Assembly (NCBI GenBank): GCA_947174335.1
Contig: CAMWIM010000001.1
Coordinates: 1 to 64,000 of the forward strand
Direction of reading: 5' to 3'
Source: an uncultured Porphyromonadaceae bacterium
Lineage (GTDB): Bacteria > Bacteroidota > Bacteroidia > Bacteroidales > Muribaculaceae
Length of the DNA: 64,000 nucleotides
In this document: positions 34,168-40,414 of the stretch, piece after piece
Numbering within the stretch: the first letter of the stretch is position 1
Layout of the letters: each line of letters starts with the position of its first letter
The notes under the pieces: generated by a model
What the model saw: only the letters and a program-made list of their open reading frames with translations
Databases searched by the model: none
Told to the model about the DNA's origin: nothing
Position numbers and translations under genes: made by a program

Positions 34168-35382
34168 ATGGCATCAATCCAAGTTAAATTCCGTAAATCG
34201 TCAGTATCCGATCATCCGGGTAGTGTTTATTATTTGATTATCCACAACAGTAAGTCAAAGCAACTGACAACACCCTATCGCCTTTTTCCTGACGAATGGA
34301 ATGATTTTATAAACAAAACTACATCCTCAGTAAAAAATTCGCGAAACCCCAATATTTCAAGCATCATGTTCGCGACTGAAATTGAATTGAGACGTTTTTT
34401 GATAATCAAAGAAAACCTCACGCTGAAACGTGAGAAATATACGGTCGACGATATAATCGATGAGTTCAAAATGTTTGTCTCAAAATATTCGCTGTCAAAT
34501 TATATGGGATCATTGATAGGACAAATGGTTCAGAACTATAAGATCAGAACATCTCAGAACTACAAAACAACTCTCAACAGTTTTTGCAACTTCATTCACG
34601 AAAAATATCCTTTGCTAAACCCGACTATCGATTATCTTACCCCTGATACAATCCAGAACTATGAAGGTTGGCTTAGGCTACGAGGGGTAACGCCCAACGC
34701 ATCTTCGTTTTATATGAGAATTTTGAGAGCCGTATATAACCGTGCGGTTGATGAACAGATCATCTACAATCGAAATCCGTTTAAACATGTATATACCGGC
34801 ATTGACAAAACCATCAAACGCGCTATATCACTCAAACTTATAAGCAAAATAAAACATCTTGACTTATCTTACAACCAATCACTCGATATGGCTCGGGATA
34901 TGTTTATGATGAGTTTCTACCTGCGCGGAATGAGTTTTATTGATATGGCATATTTGAAGTACACCGACAATCAAAATGGATACATAGTCTATCGCCGTCG
35001 TAAAACCGGGCAAAAACTCACAATCAAATGGACAAGCGAAATGCAAAGGATAATTGATAAATATCCGCGCAATCAAAGTGGCTATCTTCTCCCGATTTTA
35101 GGGCTCGAAAACTGTCGTAATTATAATGCCTATCGAAGCATCGGGAGCCGCATCAATCGTAATCTGAAAATCATAGCCCGACTTGTAAACATCAACCAGA
35201 CACTCACTCTTTATGTAGCCCGACACAGTTGGGCATCGGCAGCTCAATCAAAAGGTATTCCACTTAACGTTATCAGTCAAGGAATGGGACACGATTCCGA
35301 GTCAACAACGCGCATCTATTTAAGTTCGCTTGACACATCCCTTGTCGACAAAGCGAATTCTCTAATTTTAAATAGTCTGTAA
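34168..35382 (+). CDS. Tyrosine recombinase (phage/ICE-type integrase)
   Basis: A 404-residue site-specific recombinase. Order: N-terminal arm-binding domain (about 1-105), SAM-like core-binding domain (about 110-205), and catalytic domain with R253 (YLRGMSF), the beta-hairpin Lys (RKTGQK), R352 in YVARHSWAS, His in MGHDSESTTRIYL and the nucleophile Y384. YVAR instead of HxxR is usual in Bacteroidota enzymes. It lies 142 bases before tRNA-Gln, a common target for such integrases, and next to prophage debris. It could also be an invertase; no obvious invertible repeats were seen. Confidence 0.9.
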   Translation: MASIQVKFRKSSVSDHPGSVYYLIIHNSKSKQLTTPYRLFPDEWNDFINKTTSSVKNSRNPNISSIMFATEIELRRFLIIKENLTLKREKYTVDDIIDEFKMFVSKYSLSNYMGSLIGQMVQNYKIRTSQNYKTTLNSFCNFIHEKYPLLNPTIDYLTPDTIQNYEGWLRLRGVTPNASSFYMRILRAVYNRAVDEQIIYNRNPFKHVYTGIDKTIKRAISLKLISKIKHLDLSYNQSLDMARDMFMMSFYLRGMSFIDMAYLKYTDNQNGYIVYRRRKTGQKLTIKWTSEMQRIIDKYPRNQSGYLLPILGLENCRNYNAYRSIGSRINRNLKIIARLVNINQTLTLYVARHSWASAAQSKGIPLNVISQGMGHDSESTTRIYLSSLDTSLVDKANSLILNSL

Positions 35383-35449
35383 ACTACCCGATCTATCTAT
35401 AGTTATTAATGCTCGCCATAGAATCAAATTAAAATAAATTTCAAAAAAA

Positions 35450-35481
35450 TTTGGTAGGTAAAAAAAAACTGCGTAAATTTG
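35450..35481 (+). promoter_or_regulatory. tRNA-Gln promoter
   Basis: TTTG (35450-35453), 20 bases, TAAATTTG (35474-35481), a full consensus match, 43 bases before the tRNA. Confidence 0.7.
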
Positions 35482-35524
35482 CATCGCTTTAGAGATATGA
35501 ACACATATTTTTGAGCATTAGGAT

Positions 35525-35595
35525 TGTCTTATGGTGTAATGGTAGCACTGCAGTTTTTGGTTCTGCCTGTCTTGGTTCGAATCCAGGTAAGACAA
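35525..35595 (+). tRNA. tRNA-Gln (anticodon TTG)
   Basis: A 71-base cloverleaf. The acceptor TGTCTTA pairs with TAAGACA (7 of 7), the D-loop has GG, the anticodon loop TTTTGGT gives TTG for CAA codons, and the T-stem CTTGG/CCAGG holds the standard loop TTCGAAT. One T-T mismatch closes the anticodon loop. The 3' CCA is not encoded. A consensus promoter precedes it and a terminator follows. Confidence 0.92.
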
Positions 35596-35603
35596 CTTCT
35601 TCA

Positions 35604-35645
35604 AAACCTCATCCTACTGTTTATCAGTTCGATGAGGTTTTTCTT
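35604..35645 (+). terminator. Terminator after tRNA-Gln
   Basis: A 10-bp perfect stem AAACCTCATC (35604-35613) / GATGAGGTTT (35631-35640), then a T-rich tail. Confidence 0.8.
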
Positions 35646-35804
35646 TTATACACTCTCTTATTTACAGTCATTTTAACTGAGTTGGAAATCACAAATTGTG
35701 ATGTCAATCCGATTAATATGGTTTAAACAACGCACAAGGCTTTATCTCGGCGTCCTGTAGAAATCATAACACCTGAAAAGTAAAAGCCCTAAAAAATCCC
35801 GATA

Positions 35805-35861
35805 AGACTTGAAAAAAATCAAGCCGGAATCTTAGCCCAGCTGTTTGCTCCGGCTGAATAG
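35805..35861 (+). pseudogene. 3' end of a tail chaperone T gene (prophage remnant A)
   Basis: The frame ending at TAG 35861 reads RLEKNQAGILAQLFAPAE, nearly the same as the C-terminus of the intact chaperone extension at 38321-38539 (RLENQARVLAQLFAPAE). The rest of the gene is missing upstream, where the sequence turns into non-coding DNA. This marks the left end of the prophage debris. Confidence 0.75.
35812..35855 (-). terminator. Terminator of small minus-strand ORF A
   Basis: Reading leftward, AGCCGGA (35855-35849) pairs with TCCGGCT (35828-35822); seven T's follow on the minus strand (35818-35812). It closes the small gene at 35966-35877. The loop is about 20 bases and overlaps the T-gene remnant. 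Confidence 0.55.
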
Positions 35862-35876
35862 TTAACGTTATTCGAA

Positions 35877-35966
35877 TTATTTCTTACTAAAGAAATGTTT
35901 AATAGCATCGGCATATCCGAACAGTATACCGAGAATAATCAGAACGCCTAATATATTCAGAATCAT
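35877..35966 (-). CDS. Small single-helix membrane protein A (moron-like, in prophage remnant)
   Basis: A 29-residue frame, opposite in strand to the tail genes. It is almost entirely one hydrophobic helix (MILNILGVLIILGILFGY) with a short tail ending AIKHFFSKK. It has its own promoter (36021-35990) and terminator (35855-35812), so it is a self-contained unit. A divergent homologue occupies the same place at 38559-38666. Conservation of the frame, the FFxK end and the promoter across two diverged copies argues it is real. Function unknown; a lysogen-expressed membrane protein is one possibility. Confidence 0.6.
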   Translation of the reverse strand: MILNILGVLIILGILFGYADAIKHFFSKK

Positions 35967-35989
35967 AATCTAAAAATTTTAAATTTCCC

Positions 35990-36021
35990 CAAATTTACAA
36001 ATTTAATTTGATTTACACAAG
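35990..36021 (-). promoter_or_regulatory. Promoter of small ORF A
   Basis: Minus strand: CTTG (36021-36018), 20 bases, TAAATTTG (35997-35990). The same motif pair with identical spacing precedes ORF B at 38719-38688. The -33 overlaps the tape-measure start codon. Confidence 0.6.
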
Positions 36022-36083
36022 TGGCAAGTTATAATTTTAACTATGCATTTAATATTTCACGTTACTGTAATGAAGTTATTTAG
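36021..36083 (+). pseudogene. Start of a tape-measure gene (prophage remnant A), truncated
   Basis: From GTG 36021 the frame reads ASYNFNYAFNISRYCNEVI then stops. It matches the start of the copy at 38719 (SSYNLNYSFNISGNCNAVI), which also uses GTG. Homology ends abruptly at about 36080, where an inverted head gene begins: a recombination breakpoint. Confidence 0.75.
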
Positions 36084-36250
36084 TAGGTGACAATTAGGAT
36101 TGAGCCTTTCCCTCGCTTGTTGACCTTTGAGGTTTTGGTAGCTACCCATTTTTGCCCGAAGAACCCCTGTTCACGAAAGTTGTTATTAAACATCTCGGTG
36201 AGCTTTACTCGGACATCTTTGAGTATGTCATCGTAAATATTGCGTGCCAT
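36080..36250 (-). pseudogene. Phage virion morphogenesis (Mu gpG-like) gene, C-terminally truncated
   Basis: From ATG 36250 the frame gives 56 residues: ARNIYDDILKDVRVKLTEMF, then FREQGFFGQKWVATK, then NKRGKGSILIVT. This is the N-terminal part of gpG-like virion morphogenesis proteins (DRNFERKAFFxxxW and RRGSLLxxTGxLRRS patterns). It breaks off at the point where GxLRxS should follow, at the same junction that cuts the tape-measure remnant A. Not expected to make a working protein. Confidence 0.7.
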
Positions 36251-36272
36251 TGTTTGATTTTTTTGTTTTTTG

Positions 36273-36304
36273 ATTGTTATTTAAAGAAAAAAATAGTAAC
36301 TTTG
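36273..36304 (+). promoter_or_regulatory. Promoter of a small prophage RNA
   Basis: ATTG (36273-36276), 20 bases, TAACTTTG (36297-36304). The -7 is perfect; the -33 has one mismatch. It faces opposite to the head genes on both sides. Confidence 0.55.
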
Positions 36305-36308
36305 TAAG

Positions 36309-36380
36309 GTGGTAATCGGTAGGGCTTAGAAATAGGTCGTATTCTACACCACACCCCGGCACTATGTGTCGGGTTTTTTT
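36309..36380 (+). ncRNA. Candidate structured small RNA (about 72 nt)
   Basis: Between a promoter and a terminator lies a short segment with no start codon but strong predicted structure. An outer stem GTGGT (36309-36313)/ACCAC (36348-36352) encloses GTAG (36319-36322)/CTAC (36344-36347) and a hairpin GGCTTA-GAAA-TAGGTC (36323-36338) with a GNRA tetraloop. The terminator hairpin 36355-36373 and seven T's follow. It lies between the gpG fragment and gpF, antisense to them. I do not recognise it as a known RNA family. Confidence 0.5.
36355..36380 (+). terminator. Terminator of the small RNA
   Basis: Stem CCCGGCAC (36355-36362) with GTGTCGGG (36366-36373), loop TAT, then seven T's. Its right side overlaps the stop codon region of the minus-strand gpF gene. 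Confidence 0.75.
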
Positions 36381-37411
36381 ATTTCATCAATTCTAAATGA
36401 TCCGTCCACTTGTCTAACAACACATAAAATCTTTTCAAGTATTACCTCTTTATTTTGAAGACGATCATTATTTTTAATCCATGTAGGTAGATAGTTAAAT
36501 TTATCCCAGATATAATCCACCGAATAATCCGGATGATTATGAAAATATAGTATAGCGATTTTAGCTTTTTGCGTATTTGCTCTGTTCATAGCGTAAAGAG
36601 GGTTACCATCTTCAATACCTTTAATATCCATTAAAACACCATTTAAATAGCCGTCAGGACATTTCTCACCATCAAGTTTCTTTTCACTTTGAAGAATTAT
36701 CGAATATCCATTTTGAAAAAGAGCCTGTACCGCATTCTTTTCATAATCGCCTCTTGGAATACCAAAAATGCCCTTATCTTTATCAAAATTATGTTCTATA
36801 TGGGTTGCCTTTAATCCTCCGGTAGTCGCATTGTATTCAAGATCTTTATAATGTGGATCGCTCTTTAGACAATTATATTCTCTCAACCTACCGCACTCAA
36901 CAGCCAATTTACCTACTATTGTACAAGCCCTGCATTTATCACTATTGGGGTCATAGGCAAGATTCTGATATTTTTTGCAGTCGCCACACCCCTTGGGAAA
37001 ATAAGGATGTTTCTTGGGGAACACAGTCATTTCTTGCCCGGCATTGTAGCGGAACATTCTCATTTTCGGTTCATCGGTGCAAGCGTCACCTACTGCCTTT
37101 GCCACTTCAGGATCGGACATCGGATAATCATCACGCAGAACTTGCTCGACTGTACAACGGCAGTTCCACCCATTGGGCGGTAGATAAGACTTCCAAAAGT
37201 CATCAGACGGAGGGAGTGTTGTATTGTCGAGGGCAGCGTGATCAGAACGAACACGCTCGTCGCCGGCAGTACGATATTGGAGATTGTAACGATCGCCGTC
37301 CTCCATTATGTCGTGCCACTTGACAGCCATTTGCGAGGTGTGTAGCGCATGGTTATACTCGGCGTAAAGATAGTTGATGTTATATCGTTTGTCGATAGCT
37401 GGAAAAACCAA
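36362..37411 (-). CDS. Phage head morphogenesis protein (Mu gpF / SPP1 gp7 type), N-truncated, with nuclease-like C-terminal domain
   Basis: The 349-residue frame begins at TTG 37411 in the middle of the gpF domain: VRSDHAALDNTTLP..DDFW and PPNGWNCRCTVEQVL (about 55-90) are the hallmark gp7/gpF motifs. Usual proteins have some 150 more N-terminal residues, lost at a breakpoint near 37405. A Cys-rich linker (about 145-165, CGDC...CRAC) leads to a C-terminal domain (about 195-349) with NAVQALFQNGYSIILQSE, LNGVLMDIKG and KIAILYFHNH. This looks like the CdiA-CT/PD-(D/E)xK-like nuclease tails found on some phage head proteins. Expression is doubtful. Confidence 0.72.
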   Translation of the reverse strand: MVFPAIDKRYNINYLYAEYNHALHTSQMAVKWHDIMEDGDRYNLQYRTAGDERVRSDHAALDNTTLPPSDDFWKSYLPPNGWNCRCTVEQVLRDDYPMSDPEVAKAVGDACTDEPKMRMFRYNAGQEMTVFPKKHPYFPKGCGDCKKYQNLAYDPNSDKCRACTIVGKLAVECGRLREYNCLKSDPHYKDLEYNATTGGLKATHIEHNFDKDKGIFGIPRGDYEKNAVQALFQNGYSIILQSEKKLDGEKCPDGYLNGVLMDIKGIEDGNPLYAMNRANTQKAKIAILYFHNHPDYSVDYIWDKFNYLPTWIKNNDRLQNKEVILEKILCVVRQVDGSFRIDEIKKPDT

Positions 37412-37427
37412 TAAACCAATTAAACGA

Positions 37428-37886
37428 ATGAATGCTTTAGACTCAGCCTATAATGGTGTTCCTCTGATCAATGGCGAGGAATATTCGTGGGGTGATGTTA
37501 AAGTCTGCATCAATGGTGTGCAAGTCTTGGGTATCACTGCAATCTCTTACAGCGATAAACAAGATAAACAAAACAACTATGGTGCAGGACGCCACCCTGT
37601 TAGTCGAAGCCGTGGACGCATCACTCCCGAAGCTAAAATCACTCTCTACATGAGTGAAGTTGTGGCAATCTCGCGCACCTCGGCAACCGGACGTATCCAG
37701 GACATCGCTCCGTTTGACATCGAAGTGGCTTACATGCCCCCTAACGGTATAATCGTGGTTGACAAAATCCGCAACTGCGAGTTTACCGAAAACGTACGCA
37801 ACTGGAAAGAGGGCGACATGAATCAGCAGGTAGAATTACCTCTGCTTCCGAGCCATATCGAATATGGCAAGCCCGACGGCGTATAA
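37428..37886 (+). CDS. Phage tail tube-like protein
   Basis: Start ATG 37428 (MNALDSAYNG), 152 residues. The content is beta-rich with GVPLINGEEYSWGDVKVCINGVQVLGITAI at the start, RSRGRITPEAKITLY in the middle and NWKEGDMNQQVELPLL near the end; size and place just before the tail chaperones fit the tail tube of Mu-like phages of Bacteroidota. The 5' flank is cut by the gpF breakpoint about 20 bases upstream, so the original promoter and sheath gene are gone. The reading frame itself is intact. Confidence 0.7.
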   Translation: MNALDSAYNGVPLINGEEYSWGDVKVCINGVQVLGITAISYSDKQDKQNNYGAGRHPVSRSRGRITPEAKITLYMSEVVAISRTSATGRIQDIAPFDIEVAYMPPNGIIVVDKIRNCEFTENVRNWKEGDMNQQVELPLLPSHIEYGKPDGV

Positions 37887-37961
37887 TCAACAGACCCATT
37901 TATTTAACAACCGTAGGAGCGGTGCAACATCCGCTCCTACTTTAACAAACAAAAAAACATT

Positions 37962-38327
37962 ATGGATAACGAAAACAAGACATTAGACATCAACACCGAA
38001 AACTATAAAGTCATCAATGGTGACGTAACCGCAGAACAAATTAATGAATGGAAAAACCGCAATGGTCGCATTCATGAAGTGGAAGTTGCCGATACTGAAT
38101 TTGAGGAACTCCACCGTGGTTATTTCCGTCGTCCCGACATGAAAACCATGCAAGCATTCTCAGCAGCTGCCAAGACAAACGAAATCAAAGCAGCCGAAGT
38201 GATGTTTGATAACTGTTGGCTCGGTGGTTCATCTGCAATGAAATCCGACGCTGTCTATAAAATGCAAGCAATCGGTGAATTACAAAATATCTTTGGTAAG
38301 TGTGTCTCTAAGTTAAAAAACTTGTAG
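37962..38327 (+). CDS. Phage tail assembly chaperone G
   Basis: A 121-residue protein in the position of the tail assembly chaperone, 75 bases after the tail tube and before the tape measure. Residues about 40-115 (EFEELHRGYFRRPDMKTMQAFSAA.. EVMFDNCWLGGSSAMKSDAVYKMQAIGEL) are typical of these chaperones. The last codons are TTA AAA AAC TTG TAG, holding an A AAA AAC slip site that would let some ribosomes continue into the T frame. Chaperones of tailed phages are regularly made as G and G-T forms this way. Confidence 0.75.
   Translation: MDNENKTLDINTENYKVINGDVTAEQINEWKNRNGRIHEVEVADTEFEELHRGYFRRPDMKTMQAFSAAAKTNEIKAAEVMFDNCWLGGSSAMKSDAVYKMQAIGELQNIFGKCVSKLKNL
38315..38321 (+). promoter_or_regulatory. 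Programmed -1 ribosomal frameshift site
   Basis: The heptamer A AAA AAC is in phase with the G reading frame, two codons before its stop. A -1 slip joins the frame at CTT 38321, open with no stop to 38539. A 9-bp stem-loop (GGCG-GGATC 38348-38357 with GATCC-CGCC 38363-38371, one bulged T) lies 26 bases downstream, farther than usual stimulators. The fusion would be about 192 residues. Confidence 0.75.
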
Positions 38328-38539
38328 AGGCGTATCAACTTGGTGGAGGCGTGGATCAGAACGATCCCGCCGAAATCGCCAAGGGGTGCGCCTTGATTCG
38401 GGCGAATTTCCACATCGACCCGACAACGCTACCACACGATGAGTGGGCTATGCTTTTTCAGCAAGCCGTTTGGTTAGAAAATTTCCGCCTTGAAAATCAG
38501 GCGCGAGTCTTAGCCCAGCTGTTTGCTCCAGCAGAGTAG
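38321..38539 (+). CDS. Phage tail chaperone T extension (made by -1 frameshift)
   Basis: In the -1 frame after the slip site the reading continues LVEAYQLGGGVDQNDPAEI and ends RVLAQLFAPAE at 38539, adding 72 residues to the 120 of G. A GTG at 38351 (MDQNDPAEI) could serve as an independent start but has no good ribosome site. The final 17 residues recur in remnant A at 35805-35861. In other phages the T part recruits the tape measure, whose gene follows here. Confidence 0.7.
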   Translation, partial: LVEAYQLGGGVDQNDPAEIAKGCALIRANFHIDPTTLPHDEWAMLFQQAVWLENFRLENQARVLAQLFAPAE

Positions 38540-38558
38540 CAGGTTATCTTTTGGGGAA

Positions 38559-38666
38559 CTATTTCTCAAAGAATGTCCTAATTAGTTCAGCGAACCAAGA
38601 AAAGATTCCGATTAGAAAAAGCCCAAGAAGAATAAAACCAATAATCTGAATAATAATCGAAAGCAT
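38559..38666 (-). CDS. Small single-helix membrane protein B (moron-like, in prophage remnant)
   Basis: A 35-residue frame from ATG 38666, opposite to the tail genes: MLSIIIQIIGFILLGLFLIG, then IFSWFAELIRTFFEK. It is a diverged homologue of small ORF A (same helix plus basic/aromatic end with FFxK) and sits at the same place between T and the tape measure. Its promoter (38719-38688) has the same elements and spacing as that of A. No clear terminator was seen after it. Confidence 0.6.
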   Translation of the reverse strand: MLSIIIQIIGFILLGLFLIGIFSWFAELIRTFFEK

Positions 38667-38687
38667 ACTTAATTTTTTTTAGTTCCC

Positions 38688-38719
38688 CAAATTTACAAAC
38701 TAATTTTGATATTAGCAAG
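38688..38719 (-). promoter_or_regulatory. Promoter of small ORF B
   Basis: Minus strand: CTTG (38719-38716), 20 bases, TAAATTTG (38695-38688), the same arrangement as for ORF A although much of the surrounding sequence has diverged. Confidence 0.6.
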
Positions 38720-39063
38720 TGTCAAGCTATAATTTAAATTACAGTTTTAATATTTCCGGTAACTGTAATGCAGTTATTCAAGAAGTAACACAAAATATGG
38801 TTATCCTTCAAAATAAGGTGGAGGAGACCCAAGGTGTGTTTTCTAAATTGGGGGATTTCATAATAAAGTTTAACCAAGGGGCACAATGGATTTCAAACTT
38901 ATCATCAACTTTTAGGGAGACTCTTGCTCCTGGTGCAGAACTAAACTATAAATTAGCCGAATTGGTTGCTATTGCTGGTCCGACCGCTGAGGAACTTGCC
39001 CTCGTTGAAAAATCTGCCCGAGAAACAGCAAATTTCAATAAAGTTTATTTCTGTTTTACTTAA
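38719..39063 (+). pseudogene. Tape-measure protein gene, 5' fragment (prophage remnant B)
   Basis: From GTG 38719 the 114 residues read SSYNLNYSFNISGNCNAVIQE, then a helical stretch with WISNLSSTFRETLAPGAELNYKLAELVAIAGPTAEEL, which is the N-terminal region of tape-measure proteins in this phage group. A full protein would be several hundred residues or more. The frame ends about where the convergent chromosomal hydrolase gene begins, so the right prophage boundary is a deletion near 39050. Confidence 0.72.
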
Positions 39064-40414
39064 TCGACTGAATAAATGAAGTAATATCAGCAAGGACTTC
39101 CTGTGAAAAAGTTTCTTCGAGGATTTTATATTCTTCGACATTACCGGTTATAGCGTGTTGCATCATGTGATTTAGACCCGGATAGGTTACAACTTTTGCT
39201 TGATGAGCAAGTTGAGTTGCTAAATCATAATTTAGCGAAGGCGGAACCTGAGTGTCTTTTTCGCCATAAATGATAAATGCCGGAATTTTCAGAGACTTTA
39301 AGTCTTTTGCCGGGTCATATCCAAGAAAATACATCATCCAATAGTTATCGGCTTTTGCAGTCAATACACTCTTCAGCTGTGCAGCAAGATTGATTGTCAA
39401 CGCACTCGATTTATAGCCTGGATAAAACTCCTCAAGCTTTTCATCATCAATTGAGTTACATTCGGGGGTTTTCAACCTATATTCAAAAACTTTGGCTATT
39501 GCATTTCTAAATTTCTCAGCTTCAGGTTCAGAAACACCCGATTTCATCAAAGCTACTTTATTTTGCCATGCAATAATTTCTTTACCTTGAATTGACGGAC
39601 CTGCTATTGAGATTATAAAATCAGGTCTATCGCTCTTTGCACCAAGCATATAAGCAATCAGTCCACCCTCACTATGACCGAGAATACCTATTTTGCCAAA
39701 GCGTTCATTTTCTCGAATCCAGTTCATCACAGTAGCGGCATCTTCAGCAAAATCGGCAGTTGTTGAGTTCAAAATATCGCCTGTCGATTTTCCAACACCT
39801 CGGTCATCATATCTAAAAGAAGCAATTCCGTTCCGTGCCAAATAATCAGCAATCACAGCAAAAGGTTTATGCTCAAACAATTCTTCATCGCGATTTTGCT
39901 GACCGCTACCAGTTACCATAACAACTATCGGAGTCGATGAACCAGCATCTTCAGGAATTGTCAATGTACCCACAAGTGTTGAACCTCCTTTAACGTTATT
40001 GATAGATATTTCTTTGGTTTGATATGGGAATGGAGGTTGTGGCGTTTGAGGGCGATTAGTCTTTTTATTTTCAGATTTTGACAGATTCAAAGGCAGTTTT
40101 ACAGGACCTTGATTAAAAGTTCCTGTTATACTGTCTCCTTTCAGACTTCCGGAGTAAGCAACACCAAGTTTCTTAACTGTTAAGTTTAAAGAGTCATCCG
40201 ATAAAAATATAGTCTCACAATCGATTGACTTAACTCCTTGATCGGGAGAATCCATTATTATTTTTCCAGGAGAGATATGAAATACGAGCTTCAATGAACG
40301 GTTACCCAAATTAAGCTTTCCTTCCCACGAACCTTCAATCGTTTGAGCTCGGCAAGCCGATAAAGAGACAACAAGCATCAGAGATATTATCAGATAATCG
40401 AATAATTTTCGCAT
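39056..40414 (-). CDS. Exported alpha/beta-hydrolase (esterase/peptidase-like lipoprotein)
   Basis: Start ATG 40414 (MRKLFDYLI), 452 residues. An upstream start at 40483 would lie before the predicted transcript start. Signal peptide with lipobox-like LSAC; an N-terminal beta-rich domain (TIEGSWEGKLNLGNRSLKLVFHI, about 25-110); then an alpha/beta-hydrolase fold with GSGQQNRDE, nucleophile elbow GHSEGG, Asp in YGEKDTQVP and His in LNHMMQHA. Such two-domain hydrolases are common in Bacteroidota; the substrate is unknown. Its 3' end touches the prophage tape-measure fragment, overlapping by 8 bases. Confidence 0.85.
   Translation of the reverse strand: MRKLFDYLIISLMLVVSLSACRAQTIEGSWEGKLNLGNRSLKLVFHISPGKIIMDSPDQGVKSIDCETIFLSDDSLNLTVKKLGVAYSGSLKGDSITGTFNQGPVKLPLNLSKSENKKTNRPQTPQPPFPYQTKEISINNVKGGSTLVGTLTIPEDAGSSTPIVVMVTGSGQQNRDEELFEHKPFAVIADYLARNGIASFRYDDRGVGKSTGDILNSTTADFAEDAATVMNWIRENERFGKIGILGHSEGGLIAYMLGAKSDRPDFIISIAGPSIQGKEIIAWQNKVALMKSGVSEPEAEKFRNAIAKVFEYRLKTPECNSIDDEKLEEFYPGYKSSALTINLAAQLKSVLTAKADNYWMMYFLGYDPAKDLKSLKIPAFIIYGEKDTQVPPSLNYDLATQLAHQAKVVTYPGLNHMMQHAITGNVEEYKILEETFSQEVLADITSFIQSIK

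Follow-up and report, generated by a model that had tools for sequence, protein, structure and literature searches.

Escape from the known siphophage exclusion proteins is via the tape measure protein (TMP) (PMC10883804). HK97 gp15 is an established superinfection-exclusion protein, and hybrids carrying the tail tube and TMP of HK022 escape it (PMC10883804). It is small (62 amino acids), with one N-terminal transmembrane (TM) helix and a polar C-terminal tail, and its gene, annotated as a moron, lies in the slot between the frameshifted chaperone genes gp13/gp14 and the TMP gene gp16. TP-J34 Ltp is escaped by changes in the TP-J34 TMP (PMC10883804). Both Ltp and Sie2009 of Tuc2009 are membrane proteins expressed from the prophage that block DNA entry. 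They come from phages of Gram-positive bacteria, and we take Ltp to be a lipoprotein, and the position and promoter of both genes to differ from those described below. SNIPE is a membrane nuclease, and TMP residues 100-150 set the escape of Bas14 from its enhanced mutants (PMC13190303). It meets the TMP at the inner membrane during injection, as the proteins described here would, but it has a nuclease activity with a DUF4041, whereas our morons have 28-101 amino acids, mostly one helix, and no recognised enzymatic domain. They share the slot, small size and single helix of gp15, but gp15 is encoded on the same strand as the late genes whereas the morons of the Bacteroidales phages are antisense.

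The window analyzed is a stretch of 64,000 nucleotides at the start of contig CAMWIM010000001.1, from an uncultured bacterium of the Bacteroidales. It contains ORF A (35877-35966, minus strand), encoding a 29-amino acid protein with a single TM helix (MILNILGVLIILGILFGYADAIKHFFSKK), for which the charge distribution predicts an N-out/C-in topology. A preliminary description had placed such an ORF between the end of a chaperone gene and the start of a TMP gene, and that is where it is found. The plus-strand flanks are the 3′ end of the tail-assembly chaperone GT (35815-35861, ending in QAGILAQLFAPAE and a stop codon) and a TMP start with a GTG codon (36021-36083, ASYNFNYAFNISRYCNEVI, followed by a stop). 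ORF A lies opposite phage tail genes, but both flanks are fossils in a decayed prophage, comprising about 15 codons of the chaperone 3′ end and about 20 codons of the TMP start, and an intact tail operon around it can be rejected. The promoter reads exactly as had been claimed, CTTG-N20-TAAATTTG (about 35990-36021, minus strand), with the same geometry as in relatives. The CTTG overlaps the fossil TMP start codon, and the promoter ends ~23 nt upstream of the start codon of ORF A. The hairpin with a run of seven T proposed as its terminator is present 3′ of ORF A (minus strand, 35812-35855, or 35842-35812 as detected with its T tail; one found against 0.2 expected from shuffled sequences), and is built of fossil chaperone codons. 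A terminator-like hairpin was found in 7 of 55 cases among the relatives, and a general role as terminator of the family is rejected.

A tRNA-Gln gene and an integrase flank ORF A to one side, and remnants of head genes to the other. The Mu-like remnant extends for ~3.4 kb between tRNA-Gln (35525-35596) and a hydrolase gene. It contains a fragment of a virion-morphogenesis/neck gene (36080-36250, minus strand), which is an intact 190-amino acid ORF in a relative (L131, 10539-11111), followed by a truncated Mu F-like minor head gene (36362-37411, minus strand; domain match to PF04233). The minus strand is the usual orientation of Mu F in Bacteroidales Mu-like phages, for example Bacteroides phage p00. 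On the plus strand are the 3′ part of a tail/major head gene (37374-37886; phrog_4579 and phrog_9206), the tail chaperone G (37962-38327; phrog_19076) and the GT extension (38351-38539). The slippery sequence A-AAA-AAC at the end of chaperone G (38315-38321) fits a presumed −1 frameshift into the extension, the −1 register of which is conserved in most relatives. Next to it is a second copy of the moron, ORF B (38559-38666, minus strand), encoding 35 amino acids with a single TM helix (MLSIIIQIIGFILLGLFLIGIFSWFAELIRTFFEK). Its layout and promoter are the same as those of ORF A, the promoter (CTTG-N20-TAAATTTG; 38688-38719, minus strand) overlapping the TMP start codon. The TMP remnant that follows encodes 114 N-terminal amino acids (38719-39063, plus strand). 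The flanks that the two copies share are 85 and 76% identical, the chaperone end beside ORF A being 85% identical to 38493-38539, and a search of the source genome revealed no further copy of the moron beyond A and B. A tyrosine integrase gene (34168-35382) lies directly upstream of tRNA-Gln. Its syntenic place is kept in a genome of the same genus (G058), so it is an old resident and is not necessarily linked to the Mu-like remnant.

Relatives of the locus were fetched with a profile of chaperone G, giving 58 viral and 37 genomic loci, mostly from Bacteroidales. In each we located the start of TMP and the GT extension in the −1 frame, and 59 distinct loci or prophages were analyzed. A first query of viral contigs with the TMP sequence and a search of phage DNA gave no matches, and the chaperone search matched only two phage records, both unannotated. 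The gap between chaperone and TMP genes is bimodal, being −8 to +21 nt in 10 of the 59 and 103-384 nt in the remaining 49. Every one of the 49 wide gaps contains an antisense ORF with a single TM helix, with products of 28-101 amino acids; 48 were identified by an automatic cut, and the ORF of L083, just below the cut, is intact on inspection. A sense-strand ORF of the same kind occurs in one of the 49, and shuffled sequences gave a mean of 5.45 and a maximum of 12. One of the ten closed gaps (L076) has an antisense hydrophobic ORF inside GT at the level expected by chance. The stop codon of the moron overlaps that of GT by 3 nt in 33/49. At this one site, in the slot of the gp15-type exclusion proteins between tail chaperone and TMP, some phages carry the gene and others close to them cleanly lack it, as expected of a moron. 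In L114 (genome G215) several kb are inserted between GT and the TMP gene, from about 4431, starting with a 316-amino acid ORF.

The moron sequences are hyperdiverse, with at least 15 types of protein. Searches against Pfam, NCBIfam and PADLOC gave no matching family, and the matches to PHROGs were weak and to groups of unknown function. The annotation of hankyphage p00 has no antisense gene next to TMP. ORF A is a fossil member of a widespread family of tiny membrane proteins in gut Mu-like phages that had not been annotated before. Selection on the family is strongly purifying, with pS = 0.53, pN = 0.14 and pN/pS = 0.27 over 11 disjoint pairs (Fisher p about 1e-47). The proposal that ORF A is a moron overlooked by gene calling, possibly for superinfection exclusion, is therefore supported both by the position conserved in intact relatives and by the comparison of synonymous and non-synonymous change.

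A Bacteroidota-type −7 box, TAnnTTTG, lies upstream of the moron in 45 of 50 cases (A and B included); on the opposite strand it occurs in 2/50, and among random windows in 2.9%. Its median distance to the first TMP base is 16 nt, and 34 of the 50 promoter matches have a TTG 20-24 nt upstream of the box; this −33 TTG is commonly inside TMP codons 2-3. By match to the consensus, the moron appears to have a promoter of its own. The C side of the helix is basic in 44 of the 49 morons (net charge +2.0, against −0.1 on the N side), and the predicted product is a small inner-membrane protein with one hydrophobic helix and a basic C flank. A leftward promoter, together with the 3-nt overlap of the moron and GT stop codons, might be expected of a regulatory antisense RNA directed against the GT/TMP mRNA, in which the ORF is incidental. 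This is scarcely probable, given the pN/pS of 0.27 over the 11 pairs and the presence of a TM helix in every member of the family.

On balance we favor the reading of A and B as fossil copies of a superinfection-exclusion gene of Bacteroidales Mu-like phages, which would be expressed from the prophage and lies antisense between GT and TMP. A small hydrophobic toxin is another candidate. Type I toxins such as TisB are about 30 amino acids in length with a single basic-tailed helix; they have no coupling to a structural gene, and require an antitoxin RNA. The morons resemble them in size and helix, the late GT-TMP transcript that overlaps them could be the antisense partner, in a toxin-antitoxin or an abortive infection system, and one remnant (in G058) contains five copies. 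Yet such a toxin should be silent in lysogens, whereas the moron promoter is near consensus, and a toxin leaves the coupling to TMP residues 13-72 described below unexplained. A scan of 35000-39200 for Rfam families, which RNAs outside Rfam would escape, revealed only the tRNA and no antitoxin RNA in the remnant region. We regard a toxin as quite improbable.

The exclusion reading draws on a relationship between the moron and the adjacent end of TMP. Phages that are near-identical elsewhere may carry unrelated morons, and six such pairs were compared. In all six a divergent island extends through the moron and the start of TMP, ending 65-80 codons into TMP. It begins at the GT stop codon in five of the six; L085 has an extra insertion there. 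Two segments of the N-terminal part of TMP were compared, residues 13-72 (T1) and 80-140 (T2). In pairs with matching TMP backbones, the similarity of T1 separates pairs with the same moron from those with different morons with an AUC of 1.000, compared with 0.506 for T2 and 0.626 for the GT C-terminus. In a looser set of pairs the corresponding values are 0.999, 0.693 and 0.794, and a locus-level permutation for T1 in this set gave p = 0.001, with a best permuted value of 0.81. A profile of windows along the genes gave AUC values of 0.55-0.68 in G and GT, 0.63 in TMP residues 1-13, 0.88-0.97 in residues 13-72 and 0.45-0.66 in residues 73-152, with 0.49-0.66 in the first part of the latter (73-102). 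Coupling of the moron to the whole TMP is weak (partial r = 0.26) and was rejected, since the signal sits in residues 13-72. Over all pairs GT and T1 correlate about equally with the moron, because whole lineages share ancestry; the GT flank is uncoupled in backbone-matched pairs, and a symmetric linkage was also rejected. In the intact loci a second, weaker stretch tracks the type of moron at TMP residues 380-419 (AUC = 0.75). The TMP N-terminus is predicted to be entirely helical, but with a pLDDT of 60 the model is uninformative.

The moron and T1 also stay together on different backbones and diverge together. L127 has a moron and T1 of the L049 type (L049/L103) on an unrelated TMP backbone, and L098 and L104 are a second case, with the same moron and similar T1 on unrelated backbones. 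Within one moron type the divergence of the moron follows that of T1 (rho = 0.76, p = 0.0002) but not that of the backbone (−0.05). A later, independent TMP query added a small set of loci, partly close to or redundant with the first, in which T1 similarity is high in pairs of the same type and does not exceed 0.58 in 55 pairs of different type with matching backbones; these loci show the slot in further families of the order. A single T1 allele (LWDSFEGK..) is common to the moronless phages of the clade closest to A and B, and differs from the T1 of the moron-bearing phages. L076 and L124 are moronless, yet have a T1 of moron type. At the level of sequence comparison, these data show that the moron and TMP residues ~13-72, which are present in the remnant beside copy B, have been exchanged as one cassette. 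In the literature searched we found no account of the Bacteroidales chaperone-TMP slot or of moron-T1 coupling, and the coupling to T1 is new.

Such joint exchange could be a matter of linkage alone. The moron and the TMP N-terminus would then be unrelated variable segments that lie between conserved recombination flanks (the 3′ end of GT, and TMP from codon ~73 onward), and the moron would serve the lysogen in another way. Both breakpoints are indeed in conserved sequence, and only a short conserved patch (12 TMP codons, with 81% DNA identity in pairs of different type) separates the two halves, so that recombination within it may be rare. However, TMP residues 1-13 and the promoter are conserved enough for recombination, and the last 30 residues of GT, which are physically closer to the moron, are uncoupled (AUC = 0.58). 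Nor would linkage be expected to keep the moron and T1 joined on unrelated backbones, or to generate the fine-scale co-divergence within one moron type, and the hypervariability of T1 would still need a cause. We consider linkage alone, the main alternative, rather unlikely. The HK97 relatives nevertheless count against the favored reading, since the known exclusion case has no such coupling. In SW-37 and SaltyDalty/AsXd-1 the slot gene changes, and the TMP N-terminus of SW-37 is near-identical. Coupling of the T1 type was looked for and not found in these relatives, where no hyperdiverse cassette was seen: the gene in the slot varies, but the start of TMP does not. In the HK97-like slot (L228 1-1000, L226 5204-5497) gp15 is replaced by a lipoprotein-like product in SW-37 and a signal-peptide-like product in SaltyDalty and AsXd-1. 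The chaperone-TMP slot in HK97-like phages is a general cargo slot adjoining the TMP gene.

Coupling to T1 would also be accounted for by a factor for tail assembly, a small protein that aids the folding or solubility of its cognate TMP N-terminus, and the moron does adjoin the TMP chaperone genes. Against this, the moron runs opposite to the late operon and has a vegetative-type promoter of its own, it is absent in 10 of the 59 phages, two of which have a moron-type T1, and its product is a membrane protein, although the site of tail assembly is the cytosol. An assembly factor is therefore highly doubtful. We infer instead an exclusion function, strengthened by the slot shared with HK97 gp15 and by the coupling of the cassette to the TMP N-terminus. 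A tblastn search of the phage collection with gp15 matched only Escherichia or Klebsiella phages and none from Bacteroidales, so that membership by homology fails; by analogy, the Bacteroidales morons, which occupy the gp15 slot, probably act as that protein does.

Genomes with several prophages bear on such a function. G130 contains six Mu-like prophages (L231-L236), five of which are 100% identical over the 5.2 kb compared and are presumably recent copies generated by intracellular transposition. The sixth is 98.1% identical to them up to the end of GT, has an unalignable moron and TMP codons 1-66, and is then 90.8% identical. Thus in L231 and L232 the flanks are 98 and 91% identical and the cassette differs, and both kinds of prophage are found on one contig. 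In G096 there are three prophages with three cassettes. The pattern in these two genomes is what exclusion of the same type predicts. L102 and L103, of the same type in one MAG labelled Clostridia that is probably mis-binned, provide a counter-example.

Prophage remnants with such ORFs are also found in other genomes. G058, from the same genus, is syntenic on both sides of the remnant (84 and 76%), and its own remnant is on the opposite side of the hydrolase gene. It contains five intact small moron-like ORFs (L131 7828-7911, 8195-8290, 8981-9073, 9187-9285 and 11454-11564). In L131 7828-11564, a single decayed prophage region, the five antisense morons are thus all intact and differ from one another, and most have a promoter-like sequence; the array is possibly a fossil or a host-kept collection of exclusion types. 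G240 has two more small ORFs of this kind. The fossil chaperone ends that were examined (in the window, G058 and G240) all adjoin an intact small ORF, which is suggestive, but simulation is compatible with neutral survival. Retention of A and B was rejected as proof of domestication, the neutral survival of both B orthologues being 0.18-0.28 (Fisher p = 0.058).

Since the moron and the N-terminal ~70 residues of TMP are exchanged as a pair, the moron probably decides which other phages a lysogen keeps out. The protein would be made in the lysogen and inserted into the inner membrane with its basic tail inside, where it may recognize the N-terminal segment of a TMP of the same type on arrival, and this recognition would block DNA entry. 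Swapping both halves would generate a new exclusion type, whose entry into lysogens of the old type would not be stopped. Late read-through from GT into TMP would silence the antisense moron. The chances seem to us evenly balanced that this amounts to a two-part exchangeable cassette for exclusion specificity, in which an antisense membrane protein would be passed on and exchanged as one piece with its cognate target, TMP residues ~13-72, splitting otherwise near-identical gut phages into many mutual-exclusion groups that can be co-resident only across groups.

The morons provide a natural swap series for how TMP-directed exclusion proteins choose their victims. Every type seen more than once goes with a TMP N-terminal allele of its own while the backbone is shared, so that moving about 60 codons would test the determinant. 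The family is an indication that gut phages encode a whole class of small antisense proteins missing from annotations, which would bear on the combinations of prophages possible in one gut bacterium.
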